Shown piece by piece: positions 1 to 22,789 of a stretch of 64,000 nucleotides of DNA. The notes under the pieces were generated by a model, which saw only the letters and a list, made by a program, of their open reading frames with translations, had not been told where the DNA came from and did no database searches. Location of the stretch: positions 434,001 through 498,000 of the forward strand of contig NW_008805067.1 of the NCBI RefSeq assembly GCF_000004825.1. Direction: 5' to 3'. The position numbers and the translations under genes were made by a program. Source of the stretch: Heterostelium album PN500 (Eukaryota; Evosea; Eumycetozoa; Acytosteliales; Acytosteliaceae). Each line of letters begins with the position of its first letter. The stretch's first letter is position 1.

Positions 1-3000
1 CAATATGATTTGTAACCATTCACATTCCTCATCCTTTAACGGATTGACTTGACCACCATCCAATTCAACTCTATCGGTCAATGCTGTTTTTATCAACATC
101 AAAGCTAGATTCGATAGTTCCTTCTCTCTTTCACGTTCCTCGGTTGACTTTATGATTAGTTCACTCTTCTTTAGCAAAGATACAACAATGAATTTCGAAA
201 GTGAACGGGTTACTTCCAACTCTTCCACTTGATGTTCGACCAGATCATTCCAGGCATCCAAGATATCCAATACCTCTTGATTCTGCTCACCACTACCACC
301 AGAGAATAAACGTTCATTGTATTCACGGTCATATTTCTGAATACCGGAATCACGAGATCTCGACTGAATGAATGAACCTACATCCTTAAAAGCAGGGTGT
401 CTTGCGCACAACTCCAAGATGGCTGTTTGTAGTTGAGTTCGTTTGGCCAAGTCAGGCAATACCATATTCTTCTTGGCGAGATGCTCTATCGATCCACGGA
501 AATGCTTCTGAACGGCATTGACAAAGCTTGTCTCTTTATTTGGGAATACATAGTTGGAGGTAGTCATTGAAAGTGTTTGAATAGAGAGTATCTTGTAGAG
601 TGAAGATAATGTTTGTTTACTATGTTTCGACTGTTTGATCAATTCATCCCAGAATCCTTGACATTCATGTAGTTCATGCAAGAATCTACCATAGTAAATT
701 GAGTTACAATGAATATTTGAAAGTAAACCAAATAAATCATTGATAACACTATTCGATTGTTGTTGTTGTTGCTGTTGATTCTTTAGTAAAGTAATAATAA
801 ACTTACTAGATGAATCCTCTGGTAGTAATCGATTGGTCAATTGGAATTGTGATACCGATAGATCCTTTAGTAATCCAACCAAGTCTATCAAATGAGATGT
901 AAGAATAGGGTTGTTTATTCTCTGTTGGAGAATGTCAACGATATTACTAACTTGTAAATCGGTTACATAAGAGGAGATGTAGAATTCTCGATTGTTTGAT
1001 CGAATCATCAGAACGAATGAACGTATCACATTGATGACAAAGTATGCTAGTTTGTTGGGTGATGTCACCTTGTCAAACAATACAGATAGTAGGCAGAGTG
1101 TTTGTTGTTCCTGTCCTCCCCAACCACCTTCTCCTCCACTTCTAACCTGACCGCCGGTATAGAGTATAGAGTTGACCAATGAATCTACTTGTTCCGGTAC
1201 CAAAGGATGTTGTAGCAACACTTCCAACAAACATAGAGCTTCTCTTGACAATAGATCGGCTTGGCTATTCATCTGATCGGACACCAAGAATTGATGTTGT
1301 TGTTCGATGGCAGCAAACAAAGTTGCTTGTACTGCACCTTGTTGTGTAAAAGCACGTACAATCTTATCAGACAGCGCAACAATCTGTTCATTCGGTGAAG
1401 CACAATGTGTCTTTACCACGATAACCTTGAAGCAATCGAATATCGATCTACAAATACCTCTTGCATTCGAAAGATCATCCACTTGTAACAACCAATAATC
1501 TGATAATACTTGTAACATAAACATTACCATTGAATCTATTGATGTTAAATCTGCTGAATTACTATTATTATTATTATTATTATTACTATTATTATTATTA
1601 ATAATAAAATAATTAATATAATTATAAATAATTCAATGATTCTCTGTGTAAGTTCAAATGATGATTTGAAGTTCTTTTCATGTTCGTAGAGTTGCAAGAA
1701 ACTACCACGACGATACTGAGTACGTATCATGTCGACGGAACCACCTCTCGTCCAACAACCCTTCTCGCAGAGGAAGTTTAGTGTTTCGCGTGGTCTGTCT
1801 TTCATAAAGATCGAGAATAGCTGTAGAACGGCACTCGAGATATCACGGAGATGAGAGCGGTCTTCGGCAATCGAGAATAGCAAATCGATGAGGGCATCCG
1901 ATATTCTGTTGCCGTTGAATACATTCCAGTAGTAGAGACGTGCCAAATGTGTGTACTGACAGAGAGAACCAAGTAGACGAAGTGCCTGGAGGAATGCATT
2001 GTACAATGGCATTGATGACGGGTGATCCTTGGTGAACGCTACAATGGTATCCAAGATACGGTCACCAATCGAGTAGACTGCACACGACTGCACACCGTTA
2101 TCCAACAACAAGAAATACTTGTATGCACCCTTATAGATTGCCTGTTGATTCAACTGTAGATATTGTTTGGCAATCGCTGTAATCACCTGACCTTCTTTCT
2201 CGATTGCTTCAAACGATTGATTTAATAATTGATCTAAATCCCTATTACTTATTAACTTTTGTAATTCTCTTATATTTGTTTGAATTATAACTTTAAACCT
2301 TTAAATTTGATCAAGTTAGTTATATAGTTATTTAGGTTATTGTAAGTTTTAGTTAATAATTACATTGAAATAGATGAAGATTCATCATAGATTGCATCTG
2401 TTAATAACTTTAATGTCTTTTCGAATTGATTGATAATGATTGTTGGTGACAATACATATTTAAAGATGTCATGCTTGACCAACTCTTGTTCGGTCAAAGG
2501 ATTATAACGTAATGAACTTGTAAATACATCGAAAACAATATTGACTGCATTCGGTTCAGTAGATATTAAATCATATACCATTGTAAATCTATTGATAAAC
2601 AATTGAATAATATCAATATATCCTGTTGATGATGCCTTTAAAGAATAAAAAGGATATTAATATTATTATTATTATTGTTAATGTGAATTCGCATTTAATA
2701 ACAATAGTCATTTTAAATTACTTACACTACCAGTTATATAATTTGAAGACATCATTAACTTTAGATATTGGAATGGATTATATTCAAGACACTTTGAGAT
2801 GACATCGGATTCAACAAATGCAGGTGATAGAATCATTGAATTTAATAATACCGAATAGATAATGATTGATAATGATGGTGTCATTGAACATCTTTCAAAT
2901 ACTTTAATAAGATTTAATATATCTGTCTTTTGATTCCTAATAATATAATAATATTAAAATATTAGTTATAATGATACGATAATTAAGATATAAGTTTAAA

Positions 3001-4418
3001 TTAATAGTTACTCTGATAATTGTTTAGGTTTATCTGGTGATTCTAATAATGGTACTTCACCAATGGATAACATTCCAACCAACACCAATATATATTCGAT
3101 ATTCTGAAGTGTAGATCTAATAACATCGTTGTTACATTGTAATAGATAATCTGAATATCTACCTATTCTTATTTCCTATAGGTTAAAGAACACAATATTG
3201 TTAGTATATACTTATTAGAAGTAATATATAAAGAAGATTACATACTTGATATCTATTAAATAGATCTTTAAAATCTTTTGGGAATGAAATCTTTGGTTTA
3301 TAATAATAGAGAAGGAAGAGTGTTTCTACTACCAAGAGTTGCTCGTTGATTACGTACTCTGTGTATATGGTATAGAGTTGTGGTTGATCCTTTAGGTGAT
3401 CAGGAATAGAGAAACTAGATAGTACCAACAGTGATTTCAAAAGTTTCTGTTGCCATGCCTCTTGATTCTCCTTGACATACTTCATCGGTACATCTCTTAA
3501 TATCGATTCAACACCATATGCTTTCTTTATCAATGATGATACCAATGATAACAATAAGAATCTTTCTCTATAATAATATTCTAATAACTAAATAATAATA
3601 ATAATAATCATAACAAATTATATATGTTGATGTTAATATTATATGTTTCCTATTTATATAAACAACAAATAAGATATTGATTAAACTTACATTTGAGAAT
3701 TCTAATGAATCATATTTAAGTTCTTTAACATTTGTAGAATATGATTGTATAATAATAAATGTTGTTATTTGATCTAAATTCTAATTAAATTTATTAATAT
3801 TTAATAAGTAATCAAAGTTATCAATAGTTATTATATAAAAACATACCAATATATTACTTAAATCAATAATAAATTGTTGTAACTGTAATGATAATTGATA
3901 GGTAACACCTTTAATCTTAATCTTTCCAGTTTGAATCTGTTCTTTTGATGCACTCGATGGTGGAACATAATAATCAAACAATTGTGTTATCTTGTTATCT
4001 ATATTTGATAATTCTTCTTCCTAAAATAATAGATAGATATTAAAGTAAACAAACTATTCTATTGAAAATTATTACTGATTGATATATGTATACTTACAAT
4101 CCATTTTGGATCATCAATTAAATCATTATCAATATAATAGTTTAATACAGTAAGATTATCTGAAACTAATTGTTTCTCTTTACTGGTGGTGATATTATCT
4201 AAAGACGATGATGATGATGCTGTTGTTGAACTACCTAAATCTTTAATTGATAAACTATCTGTATTGTTTGTAGATGATGATGCTGGTGATGATGATGATG
4301 ATTGTTCTGTTGTAGCAGTAGATTGATTTGTAGTTGTTGTCGTGGTAGTGGTGGTGGGTGAAGTCGAAGTTGTTGTACCCAATAAACTCGTTGACAATAG
4401 TGTATTATTATCACTCAT
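1..4418 (-). CDS. nup188: Nup188-family nucleoporin (3' end beyond window)
   Basis: Large scaffold nucleoporin of the nuclear pore inner ring. Exons read on the minus strand: 4418-4098, 4020-3847, 3780-3691, 3587-3246, 3175-3012, 2936-2726, 2635-2364, 2298 to about 1630, then an open frame from about 1570 to the left edge; phases agree through the first eight. The N-terminus is low complexity (Ser/Thr). After it come YYVPPSSASKEQ and then YYYRERFLLLLS and EQLLVVETLFLLYYYKP. These match in order the human Nup188 N-terminal stretches that I remember as SYYKPPSPSS, YYEERTCILR and EQSMLLEIIFLYY. The rest is leucine-rich alpha-solenoid. The ATG at 4418 is the first in frame and begins a typical Ser/Thr leader. 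Between about 1551 and 1630 the reading frame changes inside an AAT/TTA-rich tract with no usable GT donor. Nup205 is the main alternative; the N-terminal motifs favour Nup188. Confidence 0.75.
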
Positions 4419-4871
4419 TTTAACTATTTATAAATTTTGATTTCGTATTAAATCTTATTAAAAAGTCATAGAATGATTAATAATAACTATAAATGTTCAA
4501 AGTAATCATCAATCATAACAACCACACGAATCGATCAAAACTGTCATTCCCGCTCAGATTCACCAATTTTTAAATTTTGAAAAAATTTATTTTATCTCTA
4601 ATGATTAGATAAACAACTTAAAGTTCTATTTACATTAAATTTATGTTTTAAATTATAAAAAAGATAAAGATATTCTCATTTTTTAACATATTATCTATTA
4701 TATATTAGAGTGAAAAAAGTTTTTCGTGCACAATGACCTACAACTTCAAGATAGAGTAACACTCTTTGATAAAATTACTATTAAACAGTTGATATGAAAC
4801 TTTATTTGAAAGACAGAGAAATTATAAAAAAAAATTATTTATTATTATATAATATTATAATAATATACTTT
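4419..4871. other. Intergenic spacer
   Basis: AT-rich spacer between the start of the nucleoporin gene and the 3' end of the next minus-strand gene. It should hold the nucleoporin promoter. I see no coding sequence, RNA gene or repeat. Confidence 0.6.
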
Positions 4872-5981
4872 TTAAAACTCAACTGTTTTCATTATTCTCC
4901 AAGGATATTTCAATGGGTCACTAATTAATAGCATTGCAAAGATGACAAGTTCATGACCGAATGGAAATCGAGTGTCTTTGTAGGCAGCCATTATAGCTTG
5001 CTCTGTTGGATCGACACGTCTTGCGTCGTATCCAATGATCTGTAGATTGGTGCCACTCTCTCGCAGAGTCTTTAGTTGTTTAAAGTCGTCGGTCACACTA
5101 GCGAGTCGTTCATAGAAGTTGCAGTAGAACTGTCGGCATTCCAACGGACCAAGTCGTTTCTCTTCACCGGATTTCGTATACCAAACAAAGAACTCTGGTC
5201 GATCGCCACGCTGGTATTTGTGTCGATGTGGTTCCGGGTCGTTGTACATCTTGTCGCGACTGGCGCGGTACTTCTTACCGACCGATCCGTCCGACTCCAA
5301 TTCGACCTTGAAGCACTTGCTACCCTGATGGAAGTTCTCAAGATTCAACGATACCGGTGCATTCGGCTGGTTGTGTACGATTGGACCGAGTCGCATTGGC
5401 GAGAGCGACGGCATGCCCAGACCATCTTTACGACCGCCATGCTTGTTGTTTGGAAACACCTTGCGGTAGCCATCCAACTGCTCAGGTGCTTTCATCATCT
5501 TTAGCTGCGAGAGAACAACATTGCCTGCTACGGATTTGGCATGGTTTGCAAGCCGTGCCGTTTCAACCTTTTCATTCTCGAGTGTCATCAGTTCCTCTTG
5601 GTGTTTCTCCATCGACTCTTTGGTTCGTTTTGGCAGCGAGCTTGCCAGTGACTTGTATGCCTTTGAATGAACACCACATAAATATAAATTAGCGGCATCC
5701 CTTAACTTTACTTCAAAATACGCTTTATTATCACATTGTTTCTTTTGACTCATACATTTTAACTCTCCATAATAGACAGTTGATTTATTATCATCTTTTT
5801 TTACTTTTGGTTTTGTTGTAATTGTTTTATCATCTTTTACTTTTTCTTTTACTTTTGTTATAGTTGTGGTTGTGGTTGTTGTAGTTGTACAAGTTTCATC
5901 GTTATCATCATCACTATCATCATCAATCATCTTTGTTTTTTTATTTATTTTTTTATTATTTAAAATTCCTTTAGCTTTCAT
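4872..5981 (-). CDS. Conserved intronless protein of unknown function
   Basis: 369-residue protein from one exon. Residues 1-75 are a Lys/Asp/Thr-rich, low-complexity leader. Then comes a possible small metal-binding unit: C in GELKCMSQ, C in KQCDNKAY, and the C and H of YLCGVHSKAY. A helical charged stretch follows (about residues 110-150). The core has the blocks SLSPMRLGPIVH, LNLENFHQGSKCF, RPEFFVWYTKSGEEKRLGPL and a C-terminal PFGHELVIFAMLLIS. The core looks like a real conserved domain but I cannot name it. The block order gives me a weak, unverified impression of uncharacterised proteins in large DNA viruses of protists. The core is richer in G+C than the leader and than the flanks. No signal peptide or membrane segment is evident. 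Confidence 0.75.
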   Translation of the reverse strand: MKAKGILNNKKINKKTKMIDDDSDDDNDETCTTTTTTTTTITKVKEKVKDDKTITTKPKVKKDDNKSTVYYGELKCMSQKKQCDNKAYFEVKLRDAANLYLCGVHSKAYKSLASSLPKRTKESMEKHQEELMTLENEKVETARLANHAKSVAGNVVLSQLKMMKAPEQLDGYRKVFPNNKHGGRKDGLGMPSLSPMRLGPIVHNQPNAPVSLNLENFHQGSKCFKVELESDGSVGKKYRASRDKMYNDPEPHRHKYQRGDRPEFFVWYTKSGEEKRLGPLECRQFYCNFYERLASVTDDFKQLKTLRESGTNLQIIGYDARRVDPTEQAIMAAYKDTRFPFGHELVIFAMLLISDPLKYPWRIMKTVEF

Positions 5982-17531: not shown

Positions 17532-18441
17532 ATGAATACAGATACAGATACAACAGTCGCTCAATCAACAACAACCGATGTTGAAATCACAGACGCTTCA
17601 AAGAAGAAAGATGAATTCTATTTAAGATATTAGTATGTTAATTAATACAAGTAACCATTGATTGATTTTCACTAACCGAAACGACGAATGATCTACTTAG
17701 TATCGGACACAAAGGAAAGTTTGGACACGAGTTTATAGAGTTTGAATTTAGAGGAGGAAATAAACTAAGATATGCAAATAACTCTAAATATAAGAGTGAA
17801 ACAATCATTAGAAAAGAAGGTAAAGCATTATATAACAATAGTATTGTTTATTATTGCGCAATTTTACTAATGTTCATTTAATTGTGATATTCTTTAATAG
17901 TTAGTGTAAGCGAAACAGTAATTGATGTATTAAAGAAAATGATTACAGATTCGGGTGTAATGATGTATGTTATATGATATACATTTACAAAGATAAGATA
18001 GCAATAACTAATGTTTAAAACAAATTGATTCAATTTCTATTACTGTGTCGGATAACAGGGAAGACGACAAAGATTGGCCTGAACCAGATATTGTAGGAAA
18101 ACAAGAAATAGAAATAGTATACAACAACGAACATATCTCATTTACAGTAAATATTGTTAAACCAACAAGAGCAATGATTAAACTTATATAAATATTAATA
18201 TACCTTTTTTTAATTAATTAGACAACCAAAATAGGATCATTGTTAGAAGTAGAGAAAAGTAAAGATCCAGAGGGTTTGAAAGTATTTTTTTATTTAGTAC
18301 AAGATCTAAAGTGTCTTGTATTTTCATTGATTGGTCTACACTTTAAGGTATGTTAAGATTATCTCGATAATTATCGTTATAATTTTAAATAGTACTAATT
18401 TAATTATATTAATAAATAAATAGATTAAACCAATTCAATAA
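17532..18441 (+). CDS. magoh: Mago nashi, exon junction complex core
   Basis: Six exons: 17532-17632, 17701-17819, 17901-17964, 18059-18146, 18222-18347, 18424-18441, giving 171 residues. The chain has a 30-residue acidic Thr-rich leader. The full Mago fold follows: [94 protein letters not shown] and the terminal HFKIKPIQ. These blocks are almost invariant in eukaryotes. Mago binds Y14/RBM8 and locks eIF4AIII on spliced mRNA next to exon junctions in the nucleus. Later it travels with mRNA and acts in localisation, translation and nonsense-mediated decay. All introns are GT-AG and all phases agree. This is one of the few plus-strand genes in the left two thirds of the window. Confidence 0.97.
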
Positions 18442-18782: not shown

Positions 18783-21052
18783 CTATTGAGGAGCTGGTTT
18801 CTTTTTCAATACCTGACGGAAATCAATTTGTTGTGCTTCCTTCTCTTGTGGTTCTTTGTTGCTATTGTTGTTGTTGTCTTTGGCAGGAGAACTTGCTGAT
18901 TTCTTGAGTTTAACAGCACCTAAATCAAATCCGGCCGGCATCATTGCAATTCCACCGTATTTATTTACAGAAGGATTACCACCCATAGGATTTACTTTGA
19001 TTGGTGACACGGTGTGTTCTTTTTGTTCAGTGTCATTGGATTCAGATGATGATGGTTGTTCTTCGGCATGTGAATAGGAAATGACTTCCTTGATGGCAGG
19101 ATGTTGAGAGATTCTCTTGACTGGCTTCTTTCTACCTTTCTTGGTTGGTCTTTCAAGTGTTAACTAAAAAATATAACAATATAAATATTATATTTATCAA
19201 AAAAAGTAATCAATTGATATAACTTACATGAACAAGTTTCTTTGAGTCTGGAGAATGTCTTTCATAGCTAGCTTCTTCGTCTCTTTCTCTTTTGTCTGGT
19301 TGCTTTTTCTTTTCTTCGTCTGCAGCCGATTTCTTCTTCTCTTCTTCCTCTTTGGCGATACGTTTCTTCTCGGCCTCTTCGTCTGCCAAGCGCTTCTCCT
19401 CAGCCAATCTCTTTTGCTCTGCCTCTTCAGCAAGTCTCTTTTGCTCGGCCAAACGTTGTTCCTCGGCAATACGCTTTTCTTCGGCTTGTCTCTTTTGCTC
19501 TGCCTCTTCAGCAAGTCTCTTCTCCTCGGCTAATCTTTGCTCCTCAGCCAATCTCTTTTGCTCAGCTTCTTCAGCAAGTCTCTTCTCTTCAGCAACACGT
19601 TTCTCCTCGGCCAAACGGTGCTCTTCGGCAATACGTTTCTCTTCAGCCAATCTCTTCTGCTCTGCCTCTTCAGCGCGTCTCTTCTCTTCTGCCATTCTTT
19701 GTACTTCAGCAACACGCTTCTCCTCAGCCAATCTCTTTTGTTCGGCTTCTTCAGCAAGTCTCTTTTGCTCGGCCAAACGTTGTTCCTCGGCAATACGCTT
19801 TTCTTCGGCTTGTCTCTTTTGCTCTGCTTCTTCGGCAAGTCTCTTCTCCTCGGCTAATCTTTTCTCCTCAGCCAATCTCTTTTGTTCAGCTTCTTCAGCA
19901 AGTCTCTTCTCTTCGGCTAAACGTTTCTCTTCTGCTAATCTCTTTTGCTCTGTTTCTTGTGCAAGTCTTTTCTCCTCTGCAACACGTTTCTCCTCTGCTA
20001 TTCTCTTCTCTTCTGCTACTCTCTTCTCCTCTGCGACTCTCTTTTCTTCAGCAACACGTTTCTCCTCTGCTATTCTCTTCTCCTCTGCTACTCTCTTTTC
20101 TTCAGCAACACGTTTCTCTTCAGCAACACGTTTCTCCTCTGCTACTCTCTTTTCTTCAGCAACACGCTTCTCCTCTGCAACACGTTTCTCCTCTGCTACT
20201 CTCTTCTCTTCAGCAACACGTTTCTCTTCTACCAATCTCTTTTGCTCTACTTCTTGTGAGATTCTCTTCTCTTCAGCAACACGTTTCTCTTCAGCAAGTC
20301 TCTTCTCTTCAGCAACACGTTTCTCCTCAGCCAATCTCTTTTGTTCAGCTTCTTCAGATAATCTCTTTTGTTCGGATTGCTCAGCCAATTGCTTTCTTTC
20401 AGCTTCTTGATCTTTTTGACTATTTACATTATCACTCTCTTGGTGTGAAGCTGATTGCTTTGGTTGAACCTTAAACAATTTATCTTTAATATTTTACATT
20501 AAAGAGAATAATAATGTTAATAAAATTGCTAACATCCAAAATTAATTAAAAAAAAAACCATTGGTAAACCCAAAATAATATCCAATTCAAATAAAAAAAT
20601 AGATATTTTCAAAGTTTACCATTTGAATATTTAACAGTATTTTGATCGATTCTAATTATATTTTCACCGGCTTGAGAGATGAATAGTTTTCCTATGGGTA
20701 GGTCATCCAGTGAGTATACAACCATTCCAGTCATCTTTGGTTCTTGGTCCTCGGAGCTAGTTCCGGCGTCTTCTGAGGTGTAGTGAACGAGTAGTGGATT
20801 CTCCATTAGTTCATCCATGTTACTGAGTAATGATATTTCTAATTGAATTGCAGTTTCATCGCCTTTGGTAACATTCTCTTTGAAATAATAACTCTTTCTG
20901 TTGTCTTCTGTTATACTGTCATTCCTAGCTCTACCACTATTGTAATTTTCATTTTTATTGGTGGTGGTTGCTTTACGACTGGCAGTAGCAGCTTCTGCAC
21001 CACCTCCAAAGAAATATTGAATAATTAAATTATATAAATATGCAAACACCAT
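18783..21052 (-). CDS. Long single-helix protein with capping-protein-interaction (CPI) motif
   Basis: Three exons (21052-20620, 20483-19228, 19163-18783) give 689 residues with all phases in agreement. Residues 1-145 start with a hydrophobic FAYLYNLIIQYFF and hold a small conserved-looking part (MTGMVVYSLDDLPIGKLFI). Residues about 170-540 are a highly repetitive charged helix (AEEKRVAEEKRLAEEAEQKR type), probably a stable single alpha-helix or coiled coil. Across the exon 2/3 junction at residues 561-577 the chain reads LVHLTLERPTKKGRKKP. This fits the CPI consensus LxHxTxxRPKx6P at every fixed position but the Lys, which is Thr. CPI motifs are known from CARMIL, CD2AP, CapZIP and FAM21, where they bind actin capping protein. 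The tail has KYGGIAMMPAGFDLGAVKLKK and IDFRQVLKK. An actin-capping regulator is my inference; I do not know the family name. Confidence 0.75.
19362..20400 (-). repeat. Coding tandem repeat of the AEEKR/AEQKRL helix
   Basis: About 1 kb of coding DNA made of 18-bp-type (AEEKRV/L) units mixed with longer AEEAEQKRL units. Near-identical blocks recur (for example around 19460-19560 and 19770-19870), which shows recent slippage or unequal exchange. The copy number is likely to vary between strains and to be hard to assemble. Confidence 0.85.
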
Positions 21053-21623: not shown

Positions 21624-22789
21624 TTAATTTGTTTTGATCTTTTTAATTATCTGGTTATTAATTAAAATCGAATCATCGTTTTTAAGATGATTATCTGAAT
21701 CGAATTGATGTAAATTAGATGTAGAGTTATTGGCAAAAGAATTATAGGTATGGATATTGTTAATAAGGTTGGTATTGTTGTCGTTGTAGTTGGTTGAGGC
21801 AGCATGTGCGTGCACTGCTGAGGATGATGATGAACATGATTGATATGATTTTTCTTGAGGTGGTTGTTGTAATGTTGTTTCTGATGATATTGTTGTTGTT
21901 GTTGTTGTTGGTGGTTTCTTCATAGCTCTATAGAGACCTCTAAATATAAGGTATGCCCAATACATATTTAGACTATTAATGGCCACACAACCCAAGTAGG
22001 TTCCCCACCAAATATATCCAGGAAGGTTCAAGGACAATGGATACTTGGTAATCAATGCATAACCAATGGTTGTTGGGGCATAAAGGACACGGGCCAACAG
22101 GAATCCAAGAGCCATCAACAAGCCATTGATAATATAAATGAAATCTTTGCTCTTGTTTGTTCTATATAGGAACCATCTGAAATTTACAAATGGTGTTGAA
22201 ACCTCTGTTAACATATATGATACCAATACAAAATGGCAATATTTCCTTGACTAAAAAAAAATATTAATTAATAAATTGAAATTTCTTTGATATTTAATAT
22301 TGTTTTAACTCACAATTCCTAAATAATATAATAATAAACCCATTAAATGATGCATGAGTGTTGCGCTATCAATCTGACTATGATTGATCAATAGAATAAT
22401 AGTGTCGTAAAAAAAGTAACCGAGAATAAATCTCATATAGAAAGAACTCGATGGTGAGATATCATAATATGGATTTTCAGTCCATGCTAAATTCTCGAAA
22501 AATAAACATTTTAATGCACCATATGTGCAAACTATAGCATTAATATTTGATCCAATTCTATAAAATATATTATTTATTTTTAAATGAAATTAATATTGTT
22601 ATTTATGAGTGAGAAAACATTAATCAAATAAAATAATTACCTAGAATTCCATTCTATTTTATCTTTTTTCTCTAATTTATGAAAATCTTTGTAAAATAAA
22701 GGTGTAATTACATTGGAAACATATAGAGTCAATGTAAACATCAAAGCTGTAAGAATTTCTACATTCCAAGTATTTATTAACTCTTCCAT
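21624..22789 (-). CDS. TLC-domain multipass membrane protein (TMEM56/TLCD4-like)
   Basis: Three exons (22789-22641, 22557-22314, 22250-21624) give 339 residues. The chain has about six hydrophobic segments. They begin with EILTALMFTLTLYVSNVIT and include ILGYFFYDTIILLI, MHHLMGLLLYYLGIV and FIYIINGLLMALGFLLARVL. The MHHLMG pair of histidines and the later LTEVSTPFVNFRWFL block are the hallmark of the TLC (TRAM-LAG1-CLN8) domain in the TMEM56/TLCD subgroup. Ceramide synthases share the fold but have a longer Lag motif that is not seen here. The TLCD group is linked to membrane lipid composition in the ER or plasma membrane. The tail of about 90 residues is low-complexity (Thr, Ser, Asn, His) and probably cytosolic. 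Dictyostelids usually carry several such homologues. Confidence 0.85.

Follow-up and report, generated by a model that had tools for sequence, protein, structure and literature searches.

The 64,000-nucleotide stretch of Heterostelium album PN500 DNA analyzed here (the window; contig NW_008805067.1, positions 434,001 to 498,000) carries a gene whose predicted product is best interpreted as a rod-like CPI-motif protein from a small dictyostelid family of putative tethered capping-protein regulators, an interpretation to which we assign a probability of about 0.6. It is built on features that can be read in the genome sequence itself, namely splice signals, a long charged helix, the motif, relatives of the gene, and a capping protein beta whose examined contact residues are conserved. 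Judged on these features, binding of the product to capping protein is given somewhat better than even odds, and the product probably works like a CPI protein.

The gene (hereafter, the query) is located on the minus strand (21052-18783), and a splice model predicts three exons and a protein of 689 aa (Table 1). On one side it is neighbored by a Mago nashi gene encoding an exon-junction-complex protein, an exon of which is found at 17666-17878 on the plus strand (Pfam E 7.7e-16), and its upstream neighbor is a TLC-domain (TRAM/LAG1/CLN8) membrane protein (21627-22589, minus strand; two exons, with Pfam E 4.5e-15 and 2.2e-9).

Table 1. Features of the query gene; positions are those of the window, and aa numbers are those of the predicted 689-aa protein.
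Feature	Positions	Strand	Description	Basis
Exon 1	20620..21052	-	Begins with the start codon and a short hydrophobic segment (MVFAYLYNLIIQYFF) at the N-terminus; the roughly 130 aa that follow have no recognised domain	Splice model
Intron 1	20484..20619	-	136 nt, GT...AG, phase 1; 17.6% G+C; one extra internal AG at position 90	
Exon 2	19228..20483	-	Encodes a charged AEEKR(V/L/I) helix and ends with ...SPDSKKLVH, where the motif starts	Splice model
P/G-free charged stretch, aa 153-539	19300..20460	-	387 residues, mostly 6- and 9-residue units, single-alpha-helix-like	
LVH, CPI positions 1-3 (aa 561-563)	19228..19236	-	Final codons of exon 2	Splice model
Intron 2	19164..19227	-	64 nt, GT...AG, phase 0; between motif positions 3 and 4	Splice model
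Exon 3	18783..19163	-	Remaining motif, C-terminal tail, stop	Splice model
LTLERPTKKGRKKP, CPI positions 4-17 (aa 564-577)	19122..19163	-	Central R8 = R568, T10 = T570, P17 = P577	
YGGIAMMPAGFDLGAVKLKKS block (LKK), aa 632-652	18897..18959	-	Loose echo in the CH and villin-headpiece relatives	Alignments
DFRQVL, aa 677-682	18807..18824	-	Shared with DFRSVL of the villin-headpiece relative on contig C27	Alignment

Six of the seven fixed positions of the CPI consensus as printed, LxHxTxxRPK(6x)P (PMC4598739; PMC2897767), are matched by LVHLTLERPTKKGRKKP (aa 561-577), the sole change being T in place of K at position 10, as the sequence-only reading had claimed. The central arginine of the motif is present (R568, position 8). 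The same score of 6/7 is reached by CKIP-1, by a CARMIL-like control gene of this genome (contig C14), and by a CH-domain gene on contig C2, and a villin-headpiece gene on contig C27 reaches 5/7. The alignment of seven validated CPI proteins in PMC9282853 is described as showing a central R/K-x-R/K in each; at this place the query has R-P-T, while the triplet is R-P-Q for the CARMIL-like gene and R-T-K for C2. Because R/K-x-R/K was looked for and R-P-T was found, the query is filed here as CPI-like and not as a proven CPI member.

The capping protein beta of this genome, encoded on contig C11, keeps all eight of the contact residues examined (R15, D30, S41, D44, D63, Y64, D67, and Y79) when compared with the human sequence, the numbering of which is used here. 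The contacts are those described in PMC4598739 and PMC2897767. Mutation of the central arginine of the motif reportedly abolished the binding of CARMIL, CD2AP, and CKIP-1 peptides (PMC2897767), and the importance of this residue is also indicated in PMC9270954. Samd14 is described as binding capping protein with three of the seven consensus positions, and a CKIP-1 motif substituted for that of Samd14 reportedly did not bind (PMC9282853), indicating that context counts. CKIP-1, which departs from the consensus at P9, has itself been co-crystallised with capping protein (PMC2897767). The CPI motif alone is described as binding capping protein weakly, with flanking sequence setting the affinity (PMC2897767), and the affinity of the query is thus not readable from its sequence.

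The CARMIL-like control gene (C14:221500-230500, 3855-5801, minus strand) encodes the CPI motif LTHITKSRPQVAHKRKP, which is without K10, and has a Pfam CARMIL_C match at E 0.013, below the cut-off, beside LRR_6 at E 1.7e-8. A second control, a FAM21-like gene (C9:681500-689500, 1930-5181, plus strand), encodes the CPI motif LTHVTKSRPKSAGRRPP; its match to Pfam CAP-ZIP_m has an E-value of just 7.41, so that its label rests on the CPI motif together with LF-acidic repeats of the FAM21 type. Against a PDB set of 177,635 distinct sequences, a phmmer search with a 34-aa peptide of the query, selected for containing the motif, returned only two matches at E <= 10. These were 7ds8_C (E 0.91), labelled CD2-associated protein, Twinfilin-1, and 3lk4_C (E 1.1), labelled CD2AP, both of them CPI chains from capping-protein complexes. 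E-values near 1 are not significant alone, and it is the identity of the sole matches that is informative. Similarly, the C2 peptide matched two CD2AP CPI chains only (3aa6_C, E 0.46; 3lk4_C, E 1.3), the FAM21-like control peptide matched CD2AP chains (E 0.066 and 0.1), and the CARMIL-like control peptide matched a CKIP-1 chain (E 0.025) and one unrelated chain (E 0.83). One reversed query peptide had no match in the PDB set, nor did the C27 peptide. Over 20 positions, identity to CD2AP is 9/20 for the query and 6/20 for C27. Further, the query, C2, the CARMIL-like gene, and CKIP-1 all have R at position 20; the R of CKIP-1 is R169, which is described as contacting Asp30 of capping protein beta (PMC2897767).

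Relatives of the query in the same genome point to a family. A genome search with a 109-aa helix query yielded at least 22 matches at E <= 1e-6 in at least three loci (the query, C2, and a gene on contig C25), and among the matches listed a CPI-like segment directly follows the helix in two of these three loci (the query and C2); in C25, no CPI-like segment was found after the helix. When the C-terminal 129 residues of the query (the motif and the rest of exon 3) were searched against the genome, one weak match besides the query itself was returned, in C2 (E 4.04), and it starts about 60 bases past the end of the helix match at C2:575545-575814. Given that just two further helices of this kind were listed, it appears very unlikely that a random weak match would land next to one of them. 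The C2 gene (1494 aa in the predicted model) encodes the same AEEKR helix, then KLVHLTIGRTKVQGRKKPTRR in one exon, and at its end a CH domain (Pfam E 4e-24) whose best solved relatives are smoothelin, alpha-actinin, and MICAL-3. The similarity of the query and C2 after the helix scores 98 versus 38.7 +/- 6.7 for shuffled sequences, a score reached by none of 5000 shuffles, which, here and in the comparisons that follow, preserve composition only and are uncorrected for the selection of segments after a match or pattern. Outside the CPI block the score was reached by 92 of 5000 shuffles, and homology there is therefore weak. An N-terminal homology of the query and C2 that was suspected by eye was ruled out (3027 of 5000 shuffles), and the N-termini of the query, C2, and C27 differ (that of C27 as judged by eye).

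The C27 gene (976 aa in the predicted model) encodes a K/E/A-rich helix, KLSHPTLSRPTKKGK, GGINIFGDAKINPVNVVLKKT, DFRSVLK (DFRQVLK in the query), and a villin headpiece (Pfam E 9.6e-17). Since this gene was picked via L.H.T..RP, those five residues are not counted as evidence of kinship; the features common to the query and C27 that do count are the K before L, L6, T10, K11, K12, G13, and the later DFRxVLK. The query versus C27 score is 98 versus 38.9 +/- 6.7 (0 of 5000 shuffles), and outside the CPI block it was reached by 10 of 5000. The helix of C27 is of another make and is absent from the helix-search loci among the matches listed, the motif of C27 is degenerate, being without K10 and P17, and the query locus was not recovered by genome searches started from pieces of C2 and C27. 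The sequence-only reading had considered the query architecture to match none that was known; it is not unique, as the layout of helix and motif is partly shared by C2 and C27.

Two side observations concern these relatives. The C25 gene (C25:752500-760500, 1647-5195, plus strand), the third with a long AEEKR/AEEAEQLRL helix, encodes similar acidic stretches (SKIVQGEDDEE and SKIVSGEDDDE) that flank the helix before and after. Additionally, C27 and a locus at C7:651380 are a related pair: a trypsin-like protease ORF (C7:648000-655500, 3308-4285, minus strand; Pfam Trypsin_2 E 1.3e-6) ends in SILDQITEEPHQKLSHPTLLRPTKKKSLLK, which is 74% identical to the CPI-like end of C27 as far as a splice donor in the corresponding position. 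The end of this ORF looks like a partial exon duplication.

It could be argued that the ancestor of the family bound capping protein but that the query (R-P-T) and C27 copies of the motif have lost useful affinity, with the helix and the actin-binding tail now doing the work. The replacement of K10 by T in both copies, the loss of P17 in C27, the broken R/K-x-R/K core that is described for validated motifs (PMC9282853), and the C27 peptide without a PDB match are all consistent with such a loss. It is nevertheless considered unlikely, because the CARMIL-like gene of the same genome is also without K10 (Q10), its binding being predicted likewise, because CKIP-1 was co-crystallised with capping protein while itself matching 6/7, and because the query, which is nearer to CD2AP than C27 is, retains L, H, T, R, P9, and P17 together with the basic run. 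The identification of the query segment as a CPI motif, as put forward in the sequence-only reading, is kept with reservations: the layout of the C2 paralog, the distant relative C27, and PDB matches only to CPI peptides speak for it, and the missing K10 and the degenerate C27 copy speak against it.

A short motif can also arise by chance. From the amino-acid composition of ORFs totalling 36,897 aa, the expected number of one-mismatch CPI matches is about 1.3e-3 per 15,000 aa (roughly one window) and 0.52 per proteome, the size of which is assumed to be 6e6 aa. It should be noted that readers may recognise many motifs, and the match to CPI is thus not decisive by itself. A six-frame search of the 32.9-Mb genome with the pattern LxHxTxxRP gave 22 matches (10 + 12) versus 40 (25 + 15) for the reversed pattern, so that the pattern shows no enrichment across the genome. 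Of these 22 matches, eight (C9, C14, C27, C7:651380, C3, C7:1775796, C12, and C24) give L.H.T..RP in translation with no stop, and the last four were rejected as CPI genes, with upstream stops close by and P17 absent. The query segment might be taken for a basic NLS or a patch that binds nucleic acid or phosphoinositides (KKGRKKPVKR) and that resembles a CPI motif by chance, to which the density of K and R in the segment and the roughly 0.5 matches expected per proteome by composition lend some weight. This account is judged quite improbable, since an NLS leaves the L-x-H-x-T and R8 common to C2 unexplained, since the PDB matches are limited to CPI peptides with none for the reversed peptide, and since C27 has KLxHxTLxRPTKKG but is without the dense basic run.

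The interpretation of the query as a CPI-motif protein further depends on the splice that assembles the motif. As had been proposed, splicing exon 2 to exon 3 creates it: the predicted phase 0 join of ...KKLVH and LTLERPTKKGRKKP gives LVHLTLERPTKKGRKKP, and in the splice model neither exon holds the motif alone, LVH being in exon 2 and the remainder in exon 3. The accompanying prediction that simple ORF scans would miss such a motif was correct, as the query copy is not among the 22 six-frame matches. At intron 2, exon 2 ends with ...AAACTTGTTCAT/GTAAGT and exon 3 starts at TTTTTTAG/TTAACACTTGAAAGACC. The G+C content of the intron is 12.5% versus 44.9% in exon 2 and 40.2% in exon 3, and AG occurs in it just twice, at position 4 within the donor and at its 3' end, leaving no internal acceptor choice; an alternative acceptor, looked for in this intron, was not found. 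Moreover, the sequence after the helix of the C2 gene, SDHSKLVHLTIGRTKVQGRKKPTRR, is in one open exon with KLVHLT unbroken, which supports the join in the query. A wrong gene model, whether another splice or two genes, in which the motif would never form, is very hard to reconcile with an AT-rich intron offering one GT...AG choice and with the joined KLVHLT within a single exon of C2.

The charged helix that had been noted before the motif is present, and its length, put earlier at about 370 residues, is 387 P/G-free residues (aa 153-539). This stretch has 113 opposite-charge i,i+4 pairs versus 68 +/- 6 in 500 shuffles, and three like-charge pairs. No heptad register is enriched in aa 153-539, the strongest of the periods tried being 3.0, and tandem repeats with periods of 18, 27, and multiples are present. 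At the sequence level the query thus has both marks by which a single alpha helix (SAH) is recognised, a long i,i+4 opposite-charge run and no heptad hydrophobic stripe, and a single alpha helix fits aa 153-539 better than a coiled coil. If extended as one helix at 0.15 nm per residue, the rod would measure about 58 nm in the query and 100 nm in C2, where the P/G-free stretch has 668 residues.

On either side of the helix, a Pfam search of aa 1-168 and 541-689 gave no family above the cut-off (best for exon 1, E 0.053), and PDB sequence searches with the N-terminal piece and the C-terminal tail returned nothing of use. A single-sequence AlphaFold2 prediction of exon 1 has a helix at residues 2-15 (block means 61 and 52) and a mean pLDDT of 41, because of which the predicted fold was set aside. 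In the tail, DFRQVL resembles DFRxxL, a motif through which myosin light chain kinase binds actin.

A common layout may be proposed for the family, consisting of a variable N-terminus, a long charged helix, a CPI-type segment, the LKK block, and a putative actin-binding end, which would be DFRxVL in the query, a CH domain in C2, and DFRxVL with a villin headpiece in C27. CPI binding is described as exchanging capping protein out of V-1 and as lowering its affinity for barbed ends (PMC9270954). In the proposed mechanism, the CPI segment of the query would occupy the capping protein beta groove, R568 serving as the central arginine, and would make capping protein hold barbed ends less tightly and release it from V-1. 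The C-terminal end, through F-actin binding by DFRxVL, would keep the complex on filaments, so that a weak, exchangeable capping protein would be held there, and the helix would space the complex from a putative N-terminal anchor by the length of the rod. We suggest tentatively, and as a possibility that falls short of even odds, that these genes represent an undescribed dictyostelid family. Its members would be single-alpha-helix rods of 58-100 nm with a CPI segment at the end and, after that segment, one of several interchangeable F-actin-binding ends (DFRxVL, CH, or villin headpiece), and they could deliver capping protein to barbed ends, or release it from them, at a set distance from the N-terminal anchor.

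Among the matches listed in the literature on dictyostelid CPI, EHBP1, CH-domain, villin-headpiece, and capping proteins, no description of the query protein was found, and the papers listed on single alpha helices included none recognised as describing it. At least one other Dictyostelium CPI protein is mentioned in PMC9270954, and earlier notice of a query ortholog is thus possible. CPI proteins are described as helping to decide where capping protein works (PMC4598739) and as otherwise mutually unrelated (PMC6249002). If dictyostelids have an additional CPI-type family, this would be relevant to the redundancy of CPI proteins, and rods whose actin-binding ends can be exchanged would put to the test whether uncapping is tuned by distance and by attachment to filaments. 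Short motifs that are split by introns, like the query copy, escape six-frame scans.

Among known CPI systems, CD2AP (3lk4_C, 3aa6_C) resembles the query in the motif itself (LLHLTANRPKMPGRRLP versus LVHLTLERPTKKGRKKP), with L1, H3, L4, T5, R8, P9, G13, R14, and P17 in common. CD2AP has K10 and SH3 domains; in the query these are replaced by T10, with R20 and a charged helix in addition, and its two pieces searched against Pfam contain no domain above the cut-off. FAM21/WASHCAP, represented here by the FAM21-like gene on C9, is like the query in that its CPI motif is in a long, low-complexity protein, and differs in that FAM21 has repeated acidic LF motifs where the query has the charged helix. 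FAM21 is described as a member of the WASH complex (PMC8047104), and position 20 of CD2AP is given as F505 (PMC2897767). CARMIL shares with the query a CPI motif near the C-terminus, and the CARMIL-like copy on C14 also departs from the consensus at K10 (Q10); of the domains described for Dictyostelium CARMIL and CARMIL-GAP (PH-like, LRR, HD, Pro, and CPI; PMC9270954), the PH-like, LRR, and HD domains were not found by Pfam in query aa 1-168 and 541-689. Twinfilin, the tail CPI of which is described as having an overlapping site on capping protein (PMC6249002), is like the query in carrying its motif in the C-terminal tail, and the CD2AP/twinfilin chain 7ds8_C is the best PDB match of the query; ADF-homology domains were not found by Pfam in the same two pieces, aa 1-168 and 541-689. 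The C2 and C27 genes are like the query in having a charged helix, a CPI-like segment, and the LKK block, and C27 additionally shares DFRxVL with it.
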